A stretch of 20,857 nucleotides of DNA, from IMG/VR virus record IMGVR_UViG_3300032245_001016, positions 1 to 20,857 of that record. The stretch is one strand, 5' to 3'. The position numbers and the translations under genes were made by a program. The stretch's first letter is position 1. Every line of letters begins with the position of its first letter. The notes beneath the pieces were generated by a model. The model saw only the letters and a list, made by a program, of their open reading frames with translations, searched no databases and was not told where the DNA came from. Below are positions 8,707-20,857 of the stretch, piece by piece. The stretch comes from a virus.

Positions 8707-9906
8707 TTAGTCAGTAATCAACGCGATTGCGTCAGCCATGACACCTTTCACTAATACTTGCGTATCGTTTGCAGATACGAATTGTACTAACGCTTGCTCA
8801 GCAAGAATTGTACGTAAGTTTTTAGAGAAATCGTCATTTTCTTGACCGATATTCAATGAAAGACCTTCGCGGAAACGAACGTTAATCACTGATAAATCAC
8901 CACCTACGAAATCGTAGTCCGCACCAACTAAAGAAGTTTCAGCGATCAATTGCATTCCTGCAACCATTGTACCGTCTGCGCTTCTAAATGGTGGGATTTG
9001 GTAAATACCATCAACTGATTTTTGCATATCCATTGTAGCCAAAATGTCTGGATTAACGAATACCGCCGTAGCCGTTCCGTATGCTTTTTGCACTTGTAAA
9101 GCCAAAGCACGGAAAACGTCTGCGTAAGTCGGTGCTGCGGTTGTGATACCACCACCTGTAAACGCTGAAGCGTAGTCAAACAAACCATTGATTAATGTTC
9201 CATCACCTGCGAATAACTCGTCAACCGTTGCAACTTCAATACGACGAATCAAGTTCGATTGTAAGTAAGAAACCAATTGTGGCAAGTCGCGTAACATCTC
9301 TGTTGTTACTTTACAAGTAACCGCGATTTTGTTCACTTTCGCTTCTTTCTCTTTGTACTGAACAGAGATTTTTGTTTTCGCTGTACCTTCAGCAATGAAG
9401 ATAGGCAAACCTTGCTCGTTGTATTCTTCAACCCACATCGCAACACGGTTGTTGATTGTTCCAACTGAAACAAGACCTAAGTAACGAGATACACGAGAAC
9501 GAATTGGTGAAATGATACCTGTGAAGGCAGTCAATAACCAATGTGAATCGCTATCACCACCTAAGATAGTGTTTGCTTCGCTTACCGTAACCGCTGCTTT
9601 CACAGTGATATTTACGTTAGCTCCTTTAGTCGTCAAAGACGCTTCAAGTTCTTCTTTGCTCGTTTCAAACGCACCCATCAAGGCATCTTTGAACGATTTA
9701 AAAGATTTCTCGTTTCCTTTCGGAGTTTCTTTCAAAGACGCGATTTGCGTTTCGATTTCCGTGATTGCAGTTTTAAGTGCATCCGTATTGCTTTCGTTTT
9801 TCAACGCTTCGATGGAAGCATTAATTGCCTCAACATCACTTTTACTTGCAAAGCCTTTTTCGTCCAATTTTGTCTCTAAGGCTTTGATTACTTCTTCTGT
9901 TGTCAT
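8707..9906 (-). CDS. HK97-fold major capsid protein with N-terminal delta (scaffold) domain
   Basis: This gene encodes 399 aa from ATG 9906, ten bases after the protease stop; a TTG at 9930 would lengthen it by eight residues and overlap the protease gene. Residues about 1-70 form a charged coiled coil (EEVIKALETKLDEKGFASKS, then ASIEALKNES) typical of the delta domain that scaffolds procapsids and is cut off by the protease. The rest matches the phage major capsid family (Phage_capsid type): GIISPIRSRVSRYLGLVSVG, a beta-rich WVEEYNEQGLPIFIAEG section, and VTTEMLRDLPQLVSYLQSNL. The preceding gene encodes the matching protease. Confidence 0.93.
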   Translation of the reverse strand: MTTEEVIKALETKLDEKGFASKSDVEAINASIEALKNESNTDALKTAITEIETQIASLKETPKGNEKSFKSFKDALMGAFETSKEELEASLTTKGANVNITVKAAVTVSEANTILGGDSDSHWLLTAFTGIISPIRSRVSRYLGLVSVGTINNRVAMWVEEYNEQGLPIFIAEGTAKTKISVQYKEKEAKVNKIAVTCKVTTEMLRDLPQLVSYLQSNLIRRIEVATVDELFAGDGTLINGLFDYASAFTGGGITTAAPTYADVFRALALQVQKAYGTATAVFVNPDILATMDMQKSVDGIYQIPPFRSADGTMVAGMQLIAETSLVGADYDFVGGDLSVINVRFREGLSLNIGQENDDFSKNLRTILAEQALVQFVSANDTQVLVKGVMADAIALITD

Positions 9907-9916
9907 TTTTTCTGAT

Positions 9917-10834
9917 TTAGAAGTTTTCAATTATTTTGTTCCAATCCAAGGCAGGAACTTCGACCTTTTGAGTGTCCTTAGACGGCTCGTGTGTTTTAGA
10001 AGTGTCATCGTTGACGGCTTCTTTGCGAACTCCGCATGTCTTACAAAGCGCATCGCCATTATCTGCGGATAGATTTGGCGTGTCTTGTTGACACATTTCG
10101 CAATAACTTTTATCAGTTAACTCAGTGATTGACATCACTGGAGTGATTGTATTTGACCCTTTTACAACGGCACTACCTTCAATTACTTTCGCTTCGGTAA
10201 CCGCCCAAAAATAACCGCGCATGTCCGCAACTTCTTTGTTTGCTACCTGTGGGTAGTATTTATCCCAGTTCGCTTTTTCGCTTGCGTAGCTTGGCTCATT
10301 TGTATCAACGCACATGAACAACTTAACGTAACGCATGCCAACCGAGTGATTAAGCACGTACCCGTTTTTGTATTGCTCAAACATAAAAGGATTACGTTTC
10401 GAGTCGATTGTTACGTCAAACAATAATGCTTGCGTGCTACCTTCGTAAGTCGCACCAAGTTTAGACCAAGCGATTTGTTTTGTGCTTGCAACGAATTCGT
10501 TGTTGATTGAATCCGCAATAACGTACTCGAATTCCATTTCATGCTCTTGTAATAAGTGAAGCATTTTAGTTTCGGAAAGTGATTTTTTCCAAAGACCTGG
10601 TATGTGACAATCCATGTGTGAATCAATCACATTTGTGGTATTTATACACAATGAAAGTTTTAATTTTCCAACTTGGTACGAATCCGCACCGTCTTCTTTT
10701 GTGATTTCCACTTTATTATTTACTTCGCCATAAGAAGCAAAAATAACATCGCCGTGCTTGATTGCACTGGTTTTTTTAGCCAACAAAAGTTCTTTGTTTG
10801 CTAGAACGTGCTTGATGTTTTCCTCTCTTGTCAT
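9917..10834 (-). CDS. Prohead maturation protease with C-terminal zinc-ribbon-like motif
   Basis: This gene encodes 305 aa from ATG 10834, which overlaps the stop of the 28-aa gene by ATGA. It resembles HK97-type prohead proteases (family U35): NVIDSHMDCHIPGLWKKSLS near residues 68-87 is the characteristic His-containing block, GYVLNHSVGMRYVK near 158-171 carries a candidate catalytic Ser, and TEAKVIEGSAVVKGSNTITP matches the final core strand and substrate loop. Beyond the core, Cys245, Cys248, Cys264 and Cys267 form a CxxC-x15-CxxC pair like a zinc ribbon. An unstructured acidic/Lys tail follows. It would cleave the capsid delta domain during head maturation. Catalytic assignment is by motif resemblance. 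Confidence 0.85.
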   Translation of the reverse strand: MTREENIKHVLANKELLLAKKTSAIKHGDVIFASYGEVNNKVEITKEDGADSYQVGKLKLSLCINTTNVIDSHMDCHIPGLWKKSLSETKMLHLLQEHEMEFEYVIADSINNEFVASTKQIAWSKLGATYEGSTQALLFDVTIDSKRNPFMFEQYKNGYVLNHSVGMRYVKLFMCVDTNEPSYASEKANWDKYYPQVANKEVADMRGYFWAVTEAKVIEGSAVVKGSNTITPVMSITELTDKSYCEMCQQDTPNLSADNGDALCKTCGVRKEAVNDDTSKTHEPSKDTQKVEVPALDWNKIIENF

Positions 10835-10917
10835 TTCTTTACAATTTCGTTAGATGACTTAACAATCGTTTTAATTTGCTTGATGGCTTCAATTTCTTTG
10901 GGTGTTAATTTACTCAT
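10831..10917 (-). CDS. 28-aa helical peptide gene coupled to the prohead protease
   Basis: A very short gene starting at ATG 10917 encodes 28 aa (MSKLTPKEIEAIKQIKTIVK plus eight more), predicted to be one amphipathic, Lys-rich helix. Its TGA overlaps the protease ATG as ATGA, the same coupling used by several real gene pairs in this window. It is the first gene after the divergent promoter region. It may be a leader peptide that couples translation of the protease, or a tiny head-assembly protein. Function is unknown; reality is inferred from the coupling. Confidence 0.5.
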   Translation of the reverse strand: MSKLTPKEIEAIKQIKTIVKSSNEIVKK

Positions 10918-10934
10918 CTTAAAAGTATTTGAAT

Positions 10935-10942
10935 CAAAATTA
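10935..10942 (-). promoter_or_regulatory. Candidate -7 element for the protease/capsid operon
   Basis: The minus strand reads TAATTTTG, matching TAnnTTTG, 18 bases before the ATG of the 28-aa gene. A promoter is needed here because the upstream portal gene runs the other way. A clear TTTG -33 partner is not visible, so the exact element is uncertain even though a promoter in this 60-bp region is expected. Confidence 0.45.
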
Positions 10943-10945
10943 ATC

Positions 10946-10953
10946 TAAATTTG
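10946..10953 (+). promoter_or_regulatory. Candidate -7 element for the inverted portal gene
   Basis: The plus strand reads TAAATTTG, an exact TAnnTTTG match, 24 bases before the portal ATG at 10978. A TTTG at 10928-10931 lies 14 bases upstream, shorter than the usual spacing to a -33 box. It nearly abuts the minus-strand element at 10935-10942, so the two divergent promoters could compete. Confidence 0.45.
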
Positions 10954-10977
10954 TGAATATTATTAAAAAATTCTGAA

Positions 10978-12162
10978 ATGGATATTATTCAAAAATTTTT
11001 CTCCGCACTTGGATGGGGTAACTCGAATTACTACACAACTCAACAAATTGGAAGCGTAGCACCTCAGTGGGTAAACACCTCCGATAAATGGAACTTGTAT
11101 AATACTATTCCAGAACTCAACGCAGTGATTAACCGCTATGCCGACATGGTCGCAAGTGCCAACCCTGTGGTATTAGACTCAAAAGGAAACGTTGTTGACT
11201 TCAATGCAAATAATATTTTTCGATTGATTGACCGCCCAAATGCAATGCAAACGTGGGGTAAAATGATGAAGATGATCGCGATCAACCAATGCGTGACAAA
11301 CAACGTTTTAGTGTATGCGCCAAATGGATCGTTCGGTAAATTGCAACTTTTACCTTTGGCATTCAACAACGTGAAAATCGTACCTACGGGAAAGAATTTG
11401 ATTTCAGTTGACTTAGGGAGCTTCATCGAGAAATTCCAAATACCAACGTCACGAATTGACGATTACAAAGACTTCATGCCGGACGAAGTTATTTACATTT
11501 CAGAAATTGACGGTATAAATTTATTCGACTCAAAGTCAAAGATTGACGCTTTAAAAATGCCATTGTCAAACTTGGAAAAGCAATATGTGAAACGAAACGT
11601 TTTACTTGTCAATATGTTTTCTCTTGGTATCTTATCGAGCAACAACTCGGACGGTATTTCGGCAATGCCTATCGAATCGGAGGATATTGAAAAGATACGC
11701 CGTGACATAAAGAAACGTAACGAAGGCGAAGTAATCATAAGCGACAAGCCTTTAAAGTTTGACCCTATGACGTTCCCAGTGCGCGACTTGATGTTATTTG
11801 AAGAAATGAACGCGGACAAATTAGCAATCATTGACGCTTACGGATTAAATCAACATATGTTTGGACAAGGTGAAGGCGGTAAAGGATCTACATTCTCCAA
11901 CGTGGAAATGGGTGAACGTCAAGCGTACAACTCGACAATCATTCCGGCAACTGAAATCTTGTACGATGAGATTACAAAACAAATCGGACTTGATAAAGAA
12001 GGGATGTATTTAGTTCCTGATTTCACACACATATCGGTTCTCAAAGAAGATGAAACGAAGTCTGCTGAATCACTATTGAAACGAGCTACGGCAGTTGAGA
12101 AAATCACTACAATTTTGCCAACGATTAGTGAAGATGAAAAACGCAAGTTGTTAGGAATCTAA
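10978..12162 (+). CDS. Portal protein (HK97-like), inverted relative to the other structural genes
   Basis: This gene encodes 394 aa from ATG 10978. It matches phage portal proteins of the HK97 type (Phage_portal family): an N-terminal segment with PELNAVINRYADMVASANPV, a central wing/stem region with FMPDEVIYISEIDGINLF, and the characteristic C-terminal DAYGLNQHMFGQGEGGKGST followed by NVEMGERQAYN. The length is typical. The portal forms the dodecameric ring at the packaging vertex. It is the only gene on the plus strand in this window. Its last 12 nt overlap the last 12 nt of the large terminase convergently, and it needs its own promoter in 10918-10977. I see no frameshift or degradation. 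Confidence 0.92.
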   Translation: MDIIQKFFSALGWGNSNYYTTQQIGSVAPQWVNTSDKWNLYNTIPELNAVINRYADMVASANPVVLDSKGNVVDFNANNIFRLIDRPNAMQTWGKMMKMIAINQCVTNNVLVYAPNGSFGKLQLLPLAFNNVKIVPTGKNLISVDLGSFIEKFQIPTSRIDDYKDFMPDEVIYISEIDGINLFDSKSKIDALKMPLSNLEKQYVKRNVLLVNMFSLGILSSNNSDGISAMPIESEDIEKIRRDIKKRNEGEVIISDKPLKFDPMTFPVRDLMLFEEMNADKLAIIDAYGLNQHMFGQGEGGKGSTFSNVEMGERQAYNSTIIPATEILYDEITKQIGLDKEGMYLVPDFTHISVLKEDETKSAESLLKRATAVEKITTILPTISEDEKRKLLGI

Positions 12163-13506
12163 TTTCGGCAGCATCGATTGAACAAATAGCGCGAAGCCTG
12201 TAACGGCATCCGGTGCGTCGTCATTTTTGTTTTTACCTTCTTTTTGATAGTTTTTCAAGTTGTGAATGAATTGCCCGTATTCACCAATTTGCCCTTCCAA
12301 GAATCTAAAACGTCTTAGCGCATAGCTTGAATTCATGATGATACGCGTCTCTTTGTTTTGGTTATTGATTACAGGAAGCAACTTCGTTTTCGTTTGCGCT
12401 CTCAACATCTTAATGAATATCGCACCCATTCCGTTGGTCTCAACACGTGAATAGCTCACTTTGTTGTCATTTAGCACCATCGCACAACGTGGAATTGTTA
12501 CGTCAACATTTGCCTTCGTGAACACTACATCGGTTATGAACACGTCTTTGTTAACAACGTGTCCAACGACCATACACAAGAAATCACCTCCCTCGTCTGC
12601 TACGTCAATGTATGCGAATGCGCCTTCGCTGTGTTTTTTAACTGCGTCAATGTCTTTAAAGTAGCGTAAATCTTCAAACAAACGACCTTTGATATCAACA
12701 GGTGTTTGCATGTACTCAGCCATCCAAATTTCTTCACGGGTCTTTTGCTTTTTCAACAAATACTCCTCCGTTGTCATTACGCTTTCACAAAATGAACGAA
12801 GCTCGTTGTCAACTTCAATAAGTGCCGGCACAATGATTTGCTTATCGTAATATCCTTGCTCGGCATTTTTACCGATAATATCGTCACGAGTCCACCTGGT
12901 ACCAATATCAATCTCGGCGCATCCCGTTTCTTTACGTGAATCGTGCGTTGCTTCTTTCCATGAATGTGTTTTCTCGCGTATCGTTTCCGACATTGCGTCT
13001 TCCATCGAGCGGAAAAGGTCATCGGTGATTGCGAGCTTTGAAGCACCGAACCCGATAATTGTACCACCAACTCCTTGACCGAAATAACCTACTTGTTTTG
13101 ATTGATTTGTATTCCATCCGCTTACGCTGGCTTTATCTTTTGACAATGTAACGTGTGGAAATACCTTTGCGAACTTTTCGCTCTTTACAACGTCACGTGC
13201 ATCGTATGAAAGTTTTTCAGCTAATCGAGCGGAGCAAGTATTTCGCATGACGCTTTCTTCAGGATATTTACCAAGAATCCAAGCACAAAAAAGCGTTGTT
13301 ATGTACGATTTTCCTGCACGTGGTGGTAACGATACCGAAAGCGTTTTGATGTCGCCATCAGCAACTTCTTGGAACGCTTGCGCTATTTCTTTCAAGAATG
13401 GACGCGCCTTGAAAAAGTCGTAATTGTAGTAATAGCAAAAAAGTACGAAATTATCTTTTGCTCCAAGTCTTAATATTTCCTCGATTTCATTATAACTTGT
13501 CTGCAA
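12151..13506 (-). CDS. terL: Terminase large subunit
   Basis: This gene encodes 451 aa. The N-terminal ATPase shows Walker A (SLPPRAGKSY, about residues 59-68), Walker B (KLAITDDLF, about 157-165) and the coupling-type GTRW at 202-205. The C-terminal RNase H-like nuclease has its acidic residues in AYIDVADEGGDF (Asp301), SRVETNGMG (Glu356) and NDDAPDAVTG (Asp433). It cuts and pumps DNA into the prohead. The frame has no ATG near its beginning: TAA closes it just upstream and the only plausible start is TTG at 13506, 17 nt inside the small subunit gene, which suggests translational coupling. The 3' end overlaps the convergent portal gene by 12 nt. Confidence 0.95.
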   Translation of the reverse strand: MQTSYNEIEEILRLGAKDNFVLFCYYYNYDFFKARPFLKEIAQAFQEVADGDIKTLSVSLPPRAGKSYITTLFCAWILGKYPEESVMRNTCSARLAEKLSYDARDVVKSEKFAKVFPHVTLSKDKASVSGWNTNQSKQVGYFGQGVGGTIIGFGASKLAITDDLFRSMEDAMSETIREKTHSWKEATHDSRKETGCAEIDIGTRWTRDDIIGKNAEQGYYDKQIIVPALIEVDNELRSFCESVMTTEEYLLKKQKTREEIWMAEYMQTPVDIKGRLFEDLRYFKDIDAVKKHSEGAFAYIDVADEGGDFLCMVVGHVVNKDVFITDVVFTKANVDVTIPRCAMVLNDNKVSYSRVETNGMGAIFIKMLRAQTKTKLLPVINNQNKETRIIMNSSYALRRFRFLEGQIGEYGQFIHNLKNYQKEGKNKNDDAPDAVTGFALFVQSMLPKLDS

Positions 13507-13996
13507 TTTGTTGGATTATTTCGGTAGGTATGTGTTGAGCAACCTGGTTCAATTTTTCGTGATCGCTAGTGATGTCTAATTTGTCACCGTACTTTTTCGG
13601 TTGCATTTTAGAAAGCATCCATTTTCGTGTGTCGATTTGCAATTTATTTCGGTGAATCACGTTGTGGTCAACGCGTTTGTTTCCGTCAGCATCAATGTAA
13701 ACGTCTTCGCCTTGTTTGTCGGCAAGTTCCTTGATTTCATCGAAAATTAAGTCTGCACGTTTAGAACATGCACGCGCGTATTGTTTCGCATTTAATTCGT
13801 CAGAATCCAACCATTTTTCAAATAAATCGGGGTGTACTCCTAGCCTTTCTCTCGCCTTTCTTTCACTAAGTCCTTCGTATTCAATTAATTGCAATACTTT
13901 GAAAAAGTTTTCGGGTGTGTTCTTAACAGGTTTTGGACCTCGTTTTTTCGGGGGTGTTTTTGATGGTATTTTTGATGTCGTTTTCTTACTTTCCAT
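13490..13996 (-). CDS. terS: Terminase small subunit
   Basis: This gene encodes 168 aa from ATG 13996. A basic, Pro/Lys-rich N-terminus (SKTPPKKRGPKPVKNTP) precedes a helix-turn-helix-like segment (EGLSERKARERLGVHPDLFE) and a helical oligomerisation region with KLQIDTRKWMLSKMQPKKYG, a signature of bacterial-type terminase small subunits. It recognises the packaging site and stimulates the large subunit. It is the first gene after the terminator at 14037-14069 and is coupled to terL by a 17-nt overlap. Confidence 0.88.
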   Translation of the reverse strand: MESKKTTSKIPSKTPPKKRGPKPVKNTPENFFKVLQLIEYEGLSERKARERLGVHPDLFEKWLDSDELNAKQYARACSKRADLIFDEIKELADKQGEDVYIDADGNKRVDHNVIHRNKLQIDTRKWMLSKMQPKKYGDKLDITSDHEKLNQVAQHIPTEIIQQIADKL

Positions 13997-14106: not shown

Positions 14107-14991
14107 CTACAAATTAAATTTATGTGAGTCGATGAACTTATAAAATTTAGAAACGCCGTCTCTTTGTTCACGTCTTACGCTGAATGTTAAAATACGACCT
14201 CCGAGTGGCTTTGGTGGCGCGCCTCGTTCAACGTGCCAACCTCCTGCGCCAACTCCGTATTCTTCCTTATAAGTTCCGGTAATCATCAAGTGAAGTTGAC
14301 GTTGCATGATTTCATAACCTTTCACTCCAATGTGTCTAATGCTTTCGCGAACATCGTTACGCGCTGCGTTTTCGTGAATGTGTCCCATTGTGAAAACATC
14401 GAAGTCTTCGCACATTTCCAAAGCGCGTGTTAAGTTGATTGCTCCTTTTGTTACGACTCCACCGCCTCCAGAACCGTGAAAATATTTTATTTTACATGAA
14501 GCTCCACCGCCTGATTTACTTTTGTCATCTAAGTTGATGATAAGCCAACCTCCGTAACCTCCGACTTGAACGTTTGTGTTGTTCGTATAATTTAGCAAGT
14601 CAACAAAGCGTCTTAAAATGTCGGTTTCTTGCCATTTTATTATGGAACTTTCATGATTTCCGTACCCAATTACTGTGATTAAATGCGCATAAGGTGAAAA
14701 CCATTCGACAGCCGTTTCGACAATTGAGTCAAGATATTTCGAGTTATTGTGTTCTGGTCGAATGTCATCTTTTGAGGATCTACGATCTCCGCGACCTTGC
14801 ATCAAACAAAACGTGTCGCCATTGAGCATAATTGGTATGGAATTTTTCAAGCAATAATCCATGTGCTTTTTGAGTAAAACCCAATCGCATTTTGGATTAT
14901 CCCAGTGTAAATCAGAAAGGATTGCGAGTTTAAAATTCTTTCCGCCGACCTTCAATTGGTGAACGTTCTTACCGTGTTTGATTAACTCCAT
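14107..14991 (-). CDS. Calcineurin-like metallophosphoesterase
   Basis: This gene encodes 294 aa from ATG 14991. All five metal-binding motifs of the metallophosphoesterase superfamily are present in order: SDLHWD (Asp27, His29), LNGDTF (Asp59), GYGNHE (Asn112, His113), FHGSGG (His172) and TMGHIHE (His204, His206). The active site would hold two metal ions and hydrolyse a phosphoester. The substrate could be DNA (Mre11/SbcD-like nuclease) or a nucleotide. The C-terminal GVGAGGWHVERGAPPKPLGG segment resembles phage-encoded members of the family. It stands alone between two terminators, so it is expressed separately from its neighbours. A Rad50-like ATPase lies about 4 kb upstream, which leaves open a nuclease-ATPase partnership. 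Confidence 0.87.
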   Translation of the reverse strand: MELIKHGKNVHQLKVGGKNFKLAILSDLHWDNPKCDWVLLKKHMDYCLKNSIPIMLNGDTFCLMQGRGDRRSSKDDIRPEHNNSKYLDSIVETAVEWFSPYAHLITVIGYGNHESSIIKWQETDILRRFVDLLNYTNNTNVQVGGYGGWLIINLDDKSKSGGGASCKIKYFHGSGGGGVVTKGAINLTRALEMCEDFDVFTMGHIHENAARNDVRESIRHIGVKGYEIMQRQLHLMITGTYKEEYGVGAGGWHVERGAPPKPLGGRILTFSVRREQRDGVSKFYKFIDSHKFNL

Positions 14992-17144: not shown

Positions 17145-17864
17145 CTAAAAATTATTAAGGTTTAATACTTGGTTTTTTGTGGCAATTGTTACCGGTATGC
17201 CGAACCGCTCTTGTGTTATTCTTTTGAACTCTCGTTCATTTGATACGCCATCACTAAGATGAAGTAAAACAATGTTTTTACACTCGCTTAAATCCATTTT
17301 TTCCAGCGTTAAAATAGCCGTTTGAATGCTCATGTGTGACTTTAAACGGCGTTTATTGATGAAGCTCTCCGACTTGCTTTTAACAATGTCCTCACAATAA
17401 TTCGCCTCAATCATTACGCACGTGAATTTCCATGAACTTAAGTTCCAAATCAACTTATAGGAATCAGTCAAGAAAAAAACTTTTTCGGCTCCTACTTCAA
17501 TGATAAATCCAAGCGTGTCGATGTCATGCGAAGCGTCAAACGAACTTACTTTGAATTCATTGATTTGCTTTTGTTGACCGTTCTTTAATATTCCGTATCG
17601 CAATTCGCTTGGCGTTTTCATTTTGTCAAACGTTGCACTGGAAGCGAATAATGGAATACCTAGTTGTGATACCTGGTGCATGTACTTTGAATGGTCCAAA
17701 TGAGCGTGAGACACAATTGCGCCTTTAATCTTAAATACATCAAAATCAATCGCCTGTTTTACTTCATCCACCTTCACCCCGCACTCGATTAAGAGCGCGG
17801 AGTTTTGGTTTTCTAGAATGTAGGAATTTCCGACACTACCTGATGAAATGATTTTGAGTTTCAT
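17145..17864 (-). CDS. Metallo-beta-lactamase-fold hydrolase (WalJ/YycJ-like), recT partner
   Basis: This gene encodes 239 aa. I start it at ATG 17864, two bases after the recT stop, instead of at TTG 17870, which would overlap that stop. The N-terminus LKIISSGSVGNSYILENQNS and the zinc motif VSHAHLDH (about residues 51-58) match the MBL fold, with FFLTDSYKL as the later metal-binding Asp and LLHLSDG as a later His. The opening SSGSxGNS is typical of the WalJ/YycJ group, some of which are DNA exonucleases. Its place directly after recT suggests it supplies the nuclease half of a recombination pair. That role is inferred. Confidence 0.85.
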   Translation of the reverse strand: MKLKIISSGSVGNSYILENQNSALLIECGVKVDEVKQAIDFDVFKIKGAIVSHAHLDHSKYMHQVSQLGIPLFASSATFDKMKTPSELRYGILKNGQQKQINEFKVSSFDASHDIDTLGFIIEVGAEKVFFLTDSYKLIWNLSSWKFTCVMIEANYCEDIVKSKSESFINKRRLKSHMSIQTAILTLEKMDLSECKNIVLLHLSDGVSNEREFKRITQERFGIPVTIATKNQVLNLNNF

Positions 17865-17866
17865 TA

Positions 17867-18838
17867 TCAAAAGTCTGGCGAAGGTGTAATTGCTGGATTT
17901 TCTTGCGGTTGTTGCAACTCAAATGTAATTTCTTGCGTTGCGGTTTCCTCAATAATCTCGTGTTTGACATCTTCCGTTGTGTTTGCTGGCTCGTGATTGA
18001 ACTCGTCTTGAACATTGCTCAAACTAGCAAATTGAGCGTCAATTTTTTGACTATCAATAATCACATCATTGTAAGCTGCACGATAAATTGTTTTGTACGC
18101 CATTTCATCGTACCATCCTTCAACTTGTTCTTTTCCGACTTTTTTACCGCCTGACCATACATCTTTTTCACCACCCCAAAACTCTGCGCTTGCGTATTTC
18201 GGTTTGCGTTTTTCAATGTCCGCTTTCGTAAATACTCGAATGTTGTTCGACTTTGAATTAGCGTACTTCTGGCAATAAAAGCCACCGATTAGTTCACCAC
18301 GATCAAAAGGATTCACAACTTCAAATAAATACGAATCGTTTTTGTTATTCGCGTCCTTCTTGATTAACTTAAAGATGTCGTTTGCATAAACTAGCTCAAC
18401 AATCACATCTTCCAGCGTGTCAAGACCGTATTTAATCGCCTTCAAAGCAAGTCCACGATACCCAATTATTGGCGTAATGTCGAACTTGTTTGTGTGATTG
18501 TTTTTGTACGGAATCAAGTTAATGTGATTTGGTTGCAATGGGTCAAGTCCAACGCTTGCCAACGGCACAACTTGCATTGCTAACGCATTGATGTTGATAT
18601 TCTCCCAAGTGTACGCCAAAGACTCGCGTTTGTCCTCTGATGTTTTCATTCGCTTCGTTTCGGCAAGTGCCAAACCTTGATCGAGCTTAATGAAATAGTT
18701 GTTGATTAACTTTTGTTGGTATGGTGTTAAATCCATTTTTCCAACTGACCCTTCGAACTCTTTTACGACTGCTTGTGTAAATCGTTCACTTGCTGATTTT
18801 TTTGCAACTGCAGGTTGCACATTTTCTGTTTTTGACAT
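17867..18838 (-). CDS. recT: RecT-family single-strand annealing protein
   Basis: This gene encodes 323 aa from ATG 18838. The core matches RecT: ALAMQVVPLASVGLDPLQPN, then NLIPYKNN, FDITPIIGYRGLALKAIKYG, RVFTKADIEKRKPKYAS and WYDEMAYKTIYRAAYN. The C-terminal 60 residues are acidic and low complexity (HEPANTTEDVKHEIIEETAT and Gln/Pro-rich afterwards), as is common in phage RecT, and may bind a partner. It anneals complementary single strands during phage recombination. An MBL-fold hydrolase follows and a Rad50-like ATPase precedes it. A 51-bp gap upstream carries a promoter-like motif, so recT may start its own transcript. Confidence 0.9.
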   Translation of the reverse strand: MSKTENVQPAVAKKSASERFTQAVVKEFEGSVGKMDLTPYQQKLINNYFIKLDQGLALAETKRMKTSEDKRESLAYTWENININALAMQVVPLASVGLDPLQPNHINLIPYKNNHTNKFDITPIIGYRGLALKAIKYGLDTLEDVIVELVYANDIFKLIKKDANNKNDSYLFEVVNPFDRGELIGGFYCQKYANSKSNNIRVFTKADIEKRKPKYASAEFWGGEKDVWSGGKKVGKEQVEGWYDEMAYKTIYRAAYNDVIIDSQKIDAQFASLSNVQDEFNHEPANTTEDVKHEIIEETATQEITFELQQPQENPAITPSPDF

Positions 18839-18861
18839 ATTTATTTATTTATTGGTTTTTA

Positions 18862-18869
18862 CAAATATA
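18862..18869 (-). promoter_or_regulatory. Candidate -7 element for recT
   Basis: The minus strand reads TATATTTG, matching TAnnTTTG, 24 bases before the recT ATG, in the only gap longer than 20 bases of the recombination block. A TTTA box lies about 16 bases upstream, and near it a palindrome-like AGTTTAATTAACT that could bind a regulator. AT-richness makes chance matches likely. Confidence 0.4.
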
Positions 18870-18889
18870 AAACTTTATAGTTAATTAAA

Positions 18890-19156
18890 CTATTTTTTAT
18901 TAATACTATTTCGAAGCGCCTCGACAATAATGCTATCTTTTCTCAGCGTCAAGTGTATTCCTTCGTCAAGATGTTTAATCATGTCCTCAATCACTTCTTT
19001 GAGTTCGTTGTATTTTTCGTTCTGCTCCTTTTCCATTTCTTTGGCTCTCAAAGCGATATCTTCAAGCAACAATTGATTTCTTTCATACATATCTCCCATC
19101 TCTTTTGGAAATTTCTCTTGAAGTTCTTTAATCATTTGACTTACTGCTGTCTTCAT
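18890..19156 (-). CDS. Small coiled-coil phage protein with KEMEKEQ motif
   Basis: This gene encodes 88 aa from ATG 19156, 12 bases after the Rad50-like gene stop. It begins MKTAVSQMIKELQEK and contains LRAKEMEKEQNEKYNELKEV, a combination I associate with small proteins widespread in Bacteroidetes phages (MKTAVEW... with ...AKEMEKEQ). The whole protein is helical and charged. Function is unknown; neighbours suggest a link with recombination or replication, inferred from position only. Confidence 0.6.
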   Translation of the reverse strand: MKTAVSQMIKELQEKFPKEMGDMYERNQLLLEDIALRAKEMEKEQNEKYNELKEVIEDMIKHLDEGIHLTLRKDSIIVEALRNSINKK

Positions 19157-19168
19157 TGTTCTTGTTGT

Positions 19169-20857
19169 TTAGTTTATTACTGTTAACACATTCTTACTTT
19201 CATCAACTTTCAAATTAATCACCTGGCACTCGGTCTTAATCAATGACACAATACTTTCGCGTTGATCAATGAATACAGGTGCAAAAATCCCAAAGTGATA
19301 GTTTAGCGCGTTGATTACGTCAAGTCCTGCGTTGTACTTCATCGCGGTATTCAAATCATTGAATGGTGTTCCGTTTACGATTGCTTCGCACGTGTCGGCA
19401 AGTCCTCCATTGATTTGCTCGTCAAACATCTTCCATCTCACGATTGAAAACTTTGAGTTTACTCGTTGCTCGATTGTTTCGATTTGGATTTTGTTGTATT
19501 GATCAATCTGCATTTCAATCTTTTCGCAACTCGCTACCTCTTGCGCAAGCGTGCGTTGTTGGCTTTCTAGTTCTGCAATACGCTCGTTTGTCTTTGCGAT
19601 TTGATTAGCAACGTTTAGCGTTTGTTTCTTAGCGTCAATTTCTTGTGTAATCGTTGCCTTAGCTTCTCTCAAATCGCTAATGTCTGGCAATTCAATTGAA
19701 GGTATTACGATTGATTCGATTTGCACTTTTAACGCTTCGATTTCGGGTGTTGTCGCTGGGCGTTCACTAATGATTGACTTTTCGAACTCTTGTAAGTACG
19801 TTTTCTTTTGCTCGATTTGCGCTAAATAAACATCTCTATTTGAATTTATTTTATTGATTTGAGCTTCATACTTTTCAATCAATAAGTTATTATTTTTACC
19901 TTGCTCGCGTATTGAATCGAGTTGGTTTAACTTATCAACATTAAAAGCGCTGCGAAGCTCCTCAACTTTGCTTTCGTAATCCGGAAGTGATTGTTTACAC
20001 GTTGGGCAATTTTTGTCTTGACAATTTTCGTCAAATATCATATTGCTGACTTCAGCGAAATGATTGCGCAACTTGTTATTTTTATCCTTTAAGTTTTCAA
20101 TTGCTGATAACTCAAAAGTAGTATCTATCGATGAACTTTGCACAAGCGTCTTAATCTCATTTTCTAACTCCGCACGTTTCGATTGAATCGACCAGGCGTA
20201 TTGTTTTTCACTTTGGTTAAACTCATTTTGAAGCTCATTCAATTTGCCTTGAAGCTCGTATTTTTGTTCCTGAACTTTTTTCGCTTGATCTTGTGATTTC
20301 TCAACTGATTTCAATCGGTTTTGCATTTGCTCATCAATTGAATTCAATTCACCATCAAGGGAAATGATTTCGTTTTGCACTGCGCACGCGTCAACTGGTT
20401 CTGGCATGTTATAGCGTGCTTCATCAATTCGCGGTTTTATCGTTGCTAGTTCTTCTTTAAGTTTCTTTTTCTTTGCTTGTACGACTTTCTTTTGCTCGTT
20501 TAGTTCATCACCTTTGGAAAGCATTTCACGAAGCTCATCGATGTTGCCGTTCATTTGTGAAACGATTTCATCTGTTTTGATTTCGCCCGCCATTGAAGAA
20601 AGGATTTTCCTGCGCTCGTCCCACTTCATTTTTTCATTGAAGTACAAAGGATTTGAAATGATTTTAGAAATGTTCTCATCAATCATTTCCGATACACTGG
20701 TTTGATACTCACCTTTTGACTTTGGTACGTCATTAACAAAAAACGTTGTTTCGTGTCCTGTAAGCTCCTCTAAATCGTTCCCGCGTTTAGTTACCCATTT
20801 TTCACGATAAACGCGCTTAAAAGTGATTATTTTGCTATCTACGTCAAATGTACCTAC
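19169..20857 (-). CDS. Rad50/SbcC-like ATPase, N-terminus beyond the window
   Basis: The frame is open from its stop at 19169 to the right edge, giving 562 visible residues. An ATG at 20686 is internal: the 57 codons before it carry no stop and read as coherent protein (KIITFKRVYREKWVTKRGND). The visible part has the second section of the N-terminal ATPase lobe, long coiled-coil arms, a zinc-hook motif NCPTCKQSLP at 19997-20008, the returning coiled coil, and a C-terminal lobe with FNDLNTAMKYNAGLDVINAL and the Walker B-like FAPVFIDQRES. The Walker A motif should lie just outside. Such ATPases act with an Mre11/SbcD-type nuclease in DNA end processing. It leads into the recT genes. Confidence 0.82.
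   Translation of the reverse strand, partial: VGTFDVDSKIITFKRVYREKWVTKRGNDLEELTGHETTFFVNDVPKSKGEYQTSVSEMIDENISKIISNPLYFNEKMKWDERRKILSSMAGEIKTDEIVSQMNGNIDELREMLSKGDELNEQKKVVQAKKKKLKEELATIKPRIDEARYNMPEPVDACAVQNEIISLDGELNSIDEQMQNRLKSVEKSQDQAKKVQEQKYELQGKLNELQNEFNQSEKQYAWSIQSKRAELENEIKTLVQSSSIDTTFELSAIENLKDKNNKLRNHFAEVSNMIFDENCQDKNCPTCKQSLPDYESKVEELRSAFNVDKLNQLDSIREQGKNNNLLIEKYEAQINKINSNRDVYLAQIEQKKTYLQEFEKSIISERPATTPEIEALKVQIESIVIPSIELPDISDLREAKATITQEIDAKKQTLNVANQIAKTNERIAELESQQRTLAQEVASCEKIEMQIDQYNKIQIETIEQRVNSKFSIVRWKMFDEQINGGLADTCEAIVNGTPFNDLNTAMKYNAGLDVINALNYHFGIFAPVFIDQRESIVSLIKTECQVINLKVDESKNVLTVIN

Follow-up and report, generated by a model that had tools for sequence, protein, structure and literature searches.

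Gene organization of the head module

The window, meaning the whole stretch of DNA analysed here, is a 20,857-base virus record in which all substantial genes lie on the minus strand, with the sole exception of a 394-aa open reading frame (ORF) at 10978-12162 that encodes the portal protein. The tail genes share the minus strand with terS, terL, the gene in the protease position and the capsid gene. The features considered below are as follows.

8707-9930, minus strand: major capsid protein, HK97-type (PHROG 10)
9917-10834, minus strand: protease-position gene, 305 aa, first gene of the capsid operon (assigned by position and by homology to relatives)
10831-10917, minus strand: small ORF of 28 aa between the predicted divergent promoters and the protease-position gene (read from the sequence)
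10978-12162, plus strand: portal (ORF list, PHROG 12, Pfam PF04860, codon-position selection)
12151-12162: tail-to-tail overlap of 12 bp between the terL and portal stop regions (ORF coordinates)
12151-13506, minus strand: terL, terminase large subunit (PHROG 38, E = 2e-74)
13490-13996, minus strand: terS, terminase small subunit (PHROG 1482, Pfam PF20901)
17145-17870: metallo-hydrolase
17867-18838: RecT-family protein
19169-20686: SbcC-like protein

The portal ORF runs from an ATG start to a TAA stop in an intact frame. It matched PHROG 12 (portal; E = 6e-26) and Pfam Phage_portal, PF04860 (E = 1.6e-23; 83.8 bits, above the curated cut-off of 39.1), with residues 47-366 aligned to profile positions 3-302 of 321, which places it in the HK97-type family; a PDB sequence search with the portal returned no match. 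Compared with the portals of two relatives, L007 and L009, differences at codon positions 1, 2 and 3 numbered 35, 16 and 146, and 69, 30 and 191, respectively, and because they are concentrated at the third position, the plus-strand frame is under purifying selection. Coordinates, strand and family matches thus bear out the preliminary description, which had reported an intact portal gene on the opposite strand inside a terS-terL-portal-protease-capsid module.

The protease-position gene had no match of its own in PHROGs or Pfam. The stop of the 28-aa ORF overlaps its start, and a comparable small reading frame was seen 5' of the protease in L007, L029 and L035. A recombination set (17145-20686) was located close to the head genes. 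In a separate observation, the metallophosphatase genes of two relatives, L003 (gene at L003:3461-5296) and L009, are interrupted by a large insert at the conserved GNHE motif that is absent from the window copy (14107-14991, minus strand). The insert in L003 is in frame, about 317 aa long, begins with Cys and ends in ...SGN before Thr, and thus resembles an intein; an Rfam search turned up no intron.

Distribution of the inverted portal

Orientation was compared among terL and portal relatives, as the preliminary description had proposed, in viral contigs from many metagenomes, with a portal counted as distinct when its last 300 bases were not contained in another portal. There were 77 distinct inverted portals and 28 distinct co-directional ones, the latter including all outgroups; the search seeds were themselves inverted phages, and these counts do not represent a natural frequency. 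The portal protein as query recovered 14 close relatives, at 80-100% identity, in each of which the portal lies on the strand opposite terL, the protease or both; two distant relatives (39-41% identity) were also recovered, and these are co-directional. With terL as the query 73 loci were obtained, in most of which profile searches located the portal, and the totals were reached by additional scans with terL and portal from other sub-groups. Among the loci of the terL scan the portal was inverted wherever terL identity exceeded about 60% and also in several groups near 55%, the others being co-directional; the inverted phages as a whole extend to terL identities near 50%. In all inverted loci terL was on the strand opposite the portal.

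In four relatives of 34-37 kb the portal was the sole substantial opposite-strand gene. Two of these also contain a 74-aa opposite-strand ORF, which is Cys/Ser-rich, has no family match and looks spurious. The spacing from terL to the inverted portal was about 2.6-3.2 kb in L076, L082, L129 and L135; in L082 the spacer contains roughly a dozen small main-strand genes, and the portal is still inverted despite the approximately 3 kb that separate it from terL. Among 50,697 phage records, queried with three portals and one terL and with orientation checked for selected matches, no inverted relative was found in a sequenced isolate.

An error of assembly might be suspected, given that the source is a metagenomic contig, and the preliminary description had itself named misassembly as the outcome that would dispose of the observation. 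The same junctions, however, occur across many independent assemblies: the terL-portal overlap of the window recurs identically in L001-L009, and the same arrangement was present in the 77 distinct portals, which rules such an error out. The breadth of the distribution also removes the inversion as a novelty of this contig. As the preliminary description had allowed for the case of its recurrence in many related phages, it is to be read as a lineage trait.

A clean inversion confined to one gene might also be produced by a recombinase that turns the portal segment back and forth between two orientations. Inverted repeats bracketing the portal were looked for and none were found, while a single orientation was observed in 14 of 14 close relatives and in each other sampled sub-group, close relatives never being mixed. 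Neither of the two marks of an invertible (phase-variable) segment, flanking inverted repeats and the presence of both orientations, was seen, and a switch is accordingly very improbable. Since orientation does not vary within sub-groups and bracketing repeats are absent, the portal inversion is a fixed lineage trait.

Predicted promoter boxes and terminators around the portal

A first genome scan with terL alone as the query gave no matches; with an alignment as the query, terL relatives were found in Bacteroides, Dysgonomonas, Phocaeicola and Flavobacterium genomes. Because of these relatives, and because the closest isolates by portal sequence are Polaribacter phages, the hosts are probably Bacteroidota. 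An E. coli-type promoter scan of the window yielded 36 hits against 37.9 in shuffles and was abandoned in favour of the Bacteroidota box. The flavobacterial sigma-A -7 box is TAnnTTTG, at positions -12 to -5 (PMC9723704), and RNA starts were predicted from the box-position rule of that study. The window carries such boxes in both directions between the portal and the capsid operon, their starts lying 11 bp apart.

10935-10942, minus strand: -7 box TAATTTTG, proposed protease-capsid promoter (RNA start predicted near 10930)
10946-10953, plus strand: -7 box TAAATTTG, proposed portal promoter (RNA start predicted near 10958)

The predicted 30-bp promoter core was identical in L007 and L009, whereas just 59% and 50%, respectively, of the 4-fold sites of the portal were identical. 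Among the 61 distinct inverted portals whose 5' ends are intact, the portal box was found in 55, the reverse box in 59 and both in 54, as against 0.3% of shuffles for the pair, although the loci within groups are related and the counts are not all independent. Six inverted portals, all of group B as defined below (L050, L066, L082, L129, L133 and L134), lack a perfect portal box by one or two mismatches, and a perfect reverse box is lacking in L076 and L082. No clear -33 elements were seen in the window.

In the co-directional portals the portal box was present in 22 of 27 and the reverse box in 0 of 27. A stricter count placed the box upstream of 18 of 22 portals, compared with 0 of 24 terL, 0 of 18 protease, 0 of 13 capsid and 9 of 166 other genes. 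In several co-directional phages, among them L016, L065, L078 and L083, the terL stop codon TAA forms the start of the portal -7 box (TAAcTTTG or TAAtTTTG, as in the example gTAAcTTTG). These counts run against the dependence of the portal on co-expression with terL from which the preliminary description had argued, since most co-directional portals have a -7 box of their own directly upstream. We infer that the boxes are active promoters, and the portal probably formed a unit of its own prior to the flip, so that the protease-capsid promoter would be the new part in the inverted phages. The suggestion that a local rearrangement was followed by the evolution of new promoters thus holds in part: one essential gene was inverted in place and is apparently transcribed separately, but the portal box was already present in co-directional phages, and it was the protease-capsid operon that needed a promoter instead.

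The geometry of the two boxes varies by group: in some they stand back to back and the starts are separated by 10-25 bp, in others they are crossed and the separation is 12-24 bp. Because the portal and reverse boxes are so close together, two polymerases should not fit on both simultaneously. As a candidate for a -33 element with its spacing from the -7 box, TTTG-N21-TACATTTG was read by eye on both strands in the L041 group; it derives from a near-perfect palindrome 5' of the portal of L041, ATTTGCAAATGTA...TACATTTGCAAAT, which may be either a symmetric two-way promoter or an operator.

Termination was assessed in the 30 distinct inverted loci whose terL and portal stops are 30-1200 bp apart. 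Intrinsic terminators were predicted in the portal sense in 18, in the terL sense in 23 and in both senses in 15, and these facing terminators provide independent support for the portal as a separate transcription unit. At the terL-portal junction of the window, where the stops overlap, there was neither a terminator nor an unusual hairpin, and for this reason transcription from terL may run on through the portal in antisense.

History of the inversion

In a terL tree rooted with co-directional outgroups, the inverted phages fell into two groups, A, which includes the window, and B, which is nested among co-directional phages, so that the rooted tree requires two changes of orientation. A single inverted clade was rejected under this rooting (p = 0.007) and was not rejected when terL was analysed without the outgroup (p = 0.64). 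In a portal tree built without the outgroups and without two divergent groups, those of L041 and L108, the inverted portals formed one clade (96). The Bacteroides-type outgroup prophages were uninformative on orientation, the profile having failed to recognise the portal in most of them. The trees suggest one to three orientation changes in the sampled history, the number varying with the outgroup used and with the effect of long portal branches; either one inversion with recombination or two to three inversions would account for the trees.

The members of the L041 group (L041-L047 and L175-L183) have a group-A terL, about 67% identical to that of the window's group, together with a very divergent portal and capsid and an inverted portal. 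Their head block thus seems to have been exchanged for another, in which the portal is inverted as well.

The disagreement between the trees could mean that an inverted cassette of portal and promoters arose once and then moved between groups A and B by recombination, as the single portal clade and the rejection of one inverted clade by the rooted terL tree would suggest. The rejection disappears, however, when the outgroup is removed from the terL analysis, the long portal branches may attract one another, and the L041 group is inverted despite its very different portal and capsid; we regard transfer of a cassette as a serious candidate that is nevertheless somewhat less probable than its alternatives together.

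Interpretation

The reading that we favour (probability roughly 0.75) is that the portal was flipped together with its own promoter and that a second, divergent promoter came to serve the capsid operon. In the ancestor, terL, portal, protease and capsid would all have been on one strand, and the portal would have headed its own transcription unit from a sigma-A type promoter directly upstream. This unit of promoter and portal would then have been inverted in place, to lie tail to tail with terL and head to head with the protease, and the flip would have been tolerable because the portal carried its promoter along. The capsid operon, severed from the portal promoter, would be driven by a second promoter firing the opposite way from nearly the same DNA. 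With the promoters overlapping, polymerase would probably occupy one at a time, and portal and capsid expression would be linked without a shared mRNA. The flipped arrangement would thereafter have been inherited and become fixed in the lineage. We infer this order of events from the comparison of inverted with co-directional phages.

Whether the arrangement brings a regulatory benefit is a separate matter, on which we see the balance as about even. The arrangement may be a frozen accident, in which a chance flip persisted without advantage because any workable promoter was enough and an exact flip back is rare. The small number of orientation changes (one to three) in the sampled history is in keeping with this, as are the prior possession of a promoter by the portal and the difference in promoter geometry between groups, which is expected if function alone was kept. 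An accident is compatible with the anatomy, but it loses weight because the two boxes overlap closely in almost every group, and it would lose more if there had been two or three independent inversions. We consider it rather doubtful that selection shaped the overlapping promoters into a device under which transcription of the portal and of the capsid would be mutually exclusive, so as to supply few portal and many capsid proteins, and that this device had more than one independent origin among Bacteroidota phages; such repeated origin would have been open to them because the portal was already a free-standing unit of promoter and gene.

Returning to the flip of portal and promoter together, its interest lies in the usual view of head modules as co-directional blocks that scarcely vary, a view on which annotators rely. 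A deep lineage, comprising a large group of uncultured phages, broke co-direction for one essential gene and stayed so, and the sequence record points to the probable enabling step, a portal promoter older than the flip. The phages offer a testable case of setting the portal dose separately from the capsid dose, and a portal on the wrong strand is in itself no ground for distrusting a contig.

Comparison with known systems

A search of the open-licence literature on opposite-strand portals found no published account of a portal flipped alone. The nearest isolates by portal sequence, at 28%, are the Polaribacter phages Freya and Danklef (Forsetiviridae). Freya has the same order as the window (terS, terL, portal, structural protein, capsid), but its gene table places the portal on the strand of its neighbours. 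Other Bacteroidota head modules, those of Flavobacterium phage stinky9-1 (Lillamyvirus) and Cellulophaga phage phi19:1, resemble that of the window in having a small ORF after the portal and before the next structural gene, as does Freya at the corresponding place; in stinky9-1 and phi19:1, however, the portal is co-directional with its neighbours. The co-directional uncultured relatives (L016, L052, L056, L065, L078, L085 and others) share 50-57% terL identity, the gene order and the portal -7 box with the window and differ in that the portal is not inverted and the reverse -7 box is absent.

In P2-like phages the portal (Q) and the large terminase (P) lie on the strand opposite the scaffold/protease and capsid genes (O-N-M; gene tables of PMC3091744). 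The portal is therefore divergent from the scaffold/protease-capsid operon, as it is here, whereas the large terminase P shares the strand of the portal, which terL of the window does not: in the window only the portal is reversed, and it lies tail to tail with terL. At this level neither the proteins nor the hosts of the two systems are related. The divergent late promoters of P2 are switched on by Ogr. Divergent head operons were already known, and P2-like phages, which demonstrate that such operons work, are the nearest precedent for the flip of a lone portal.
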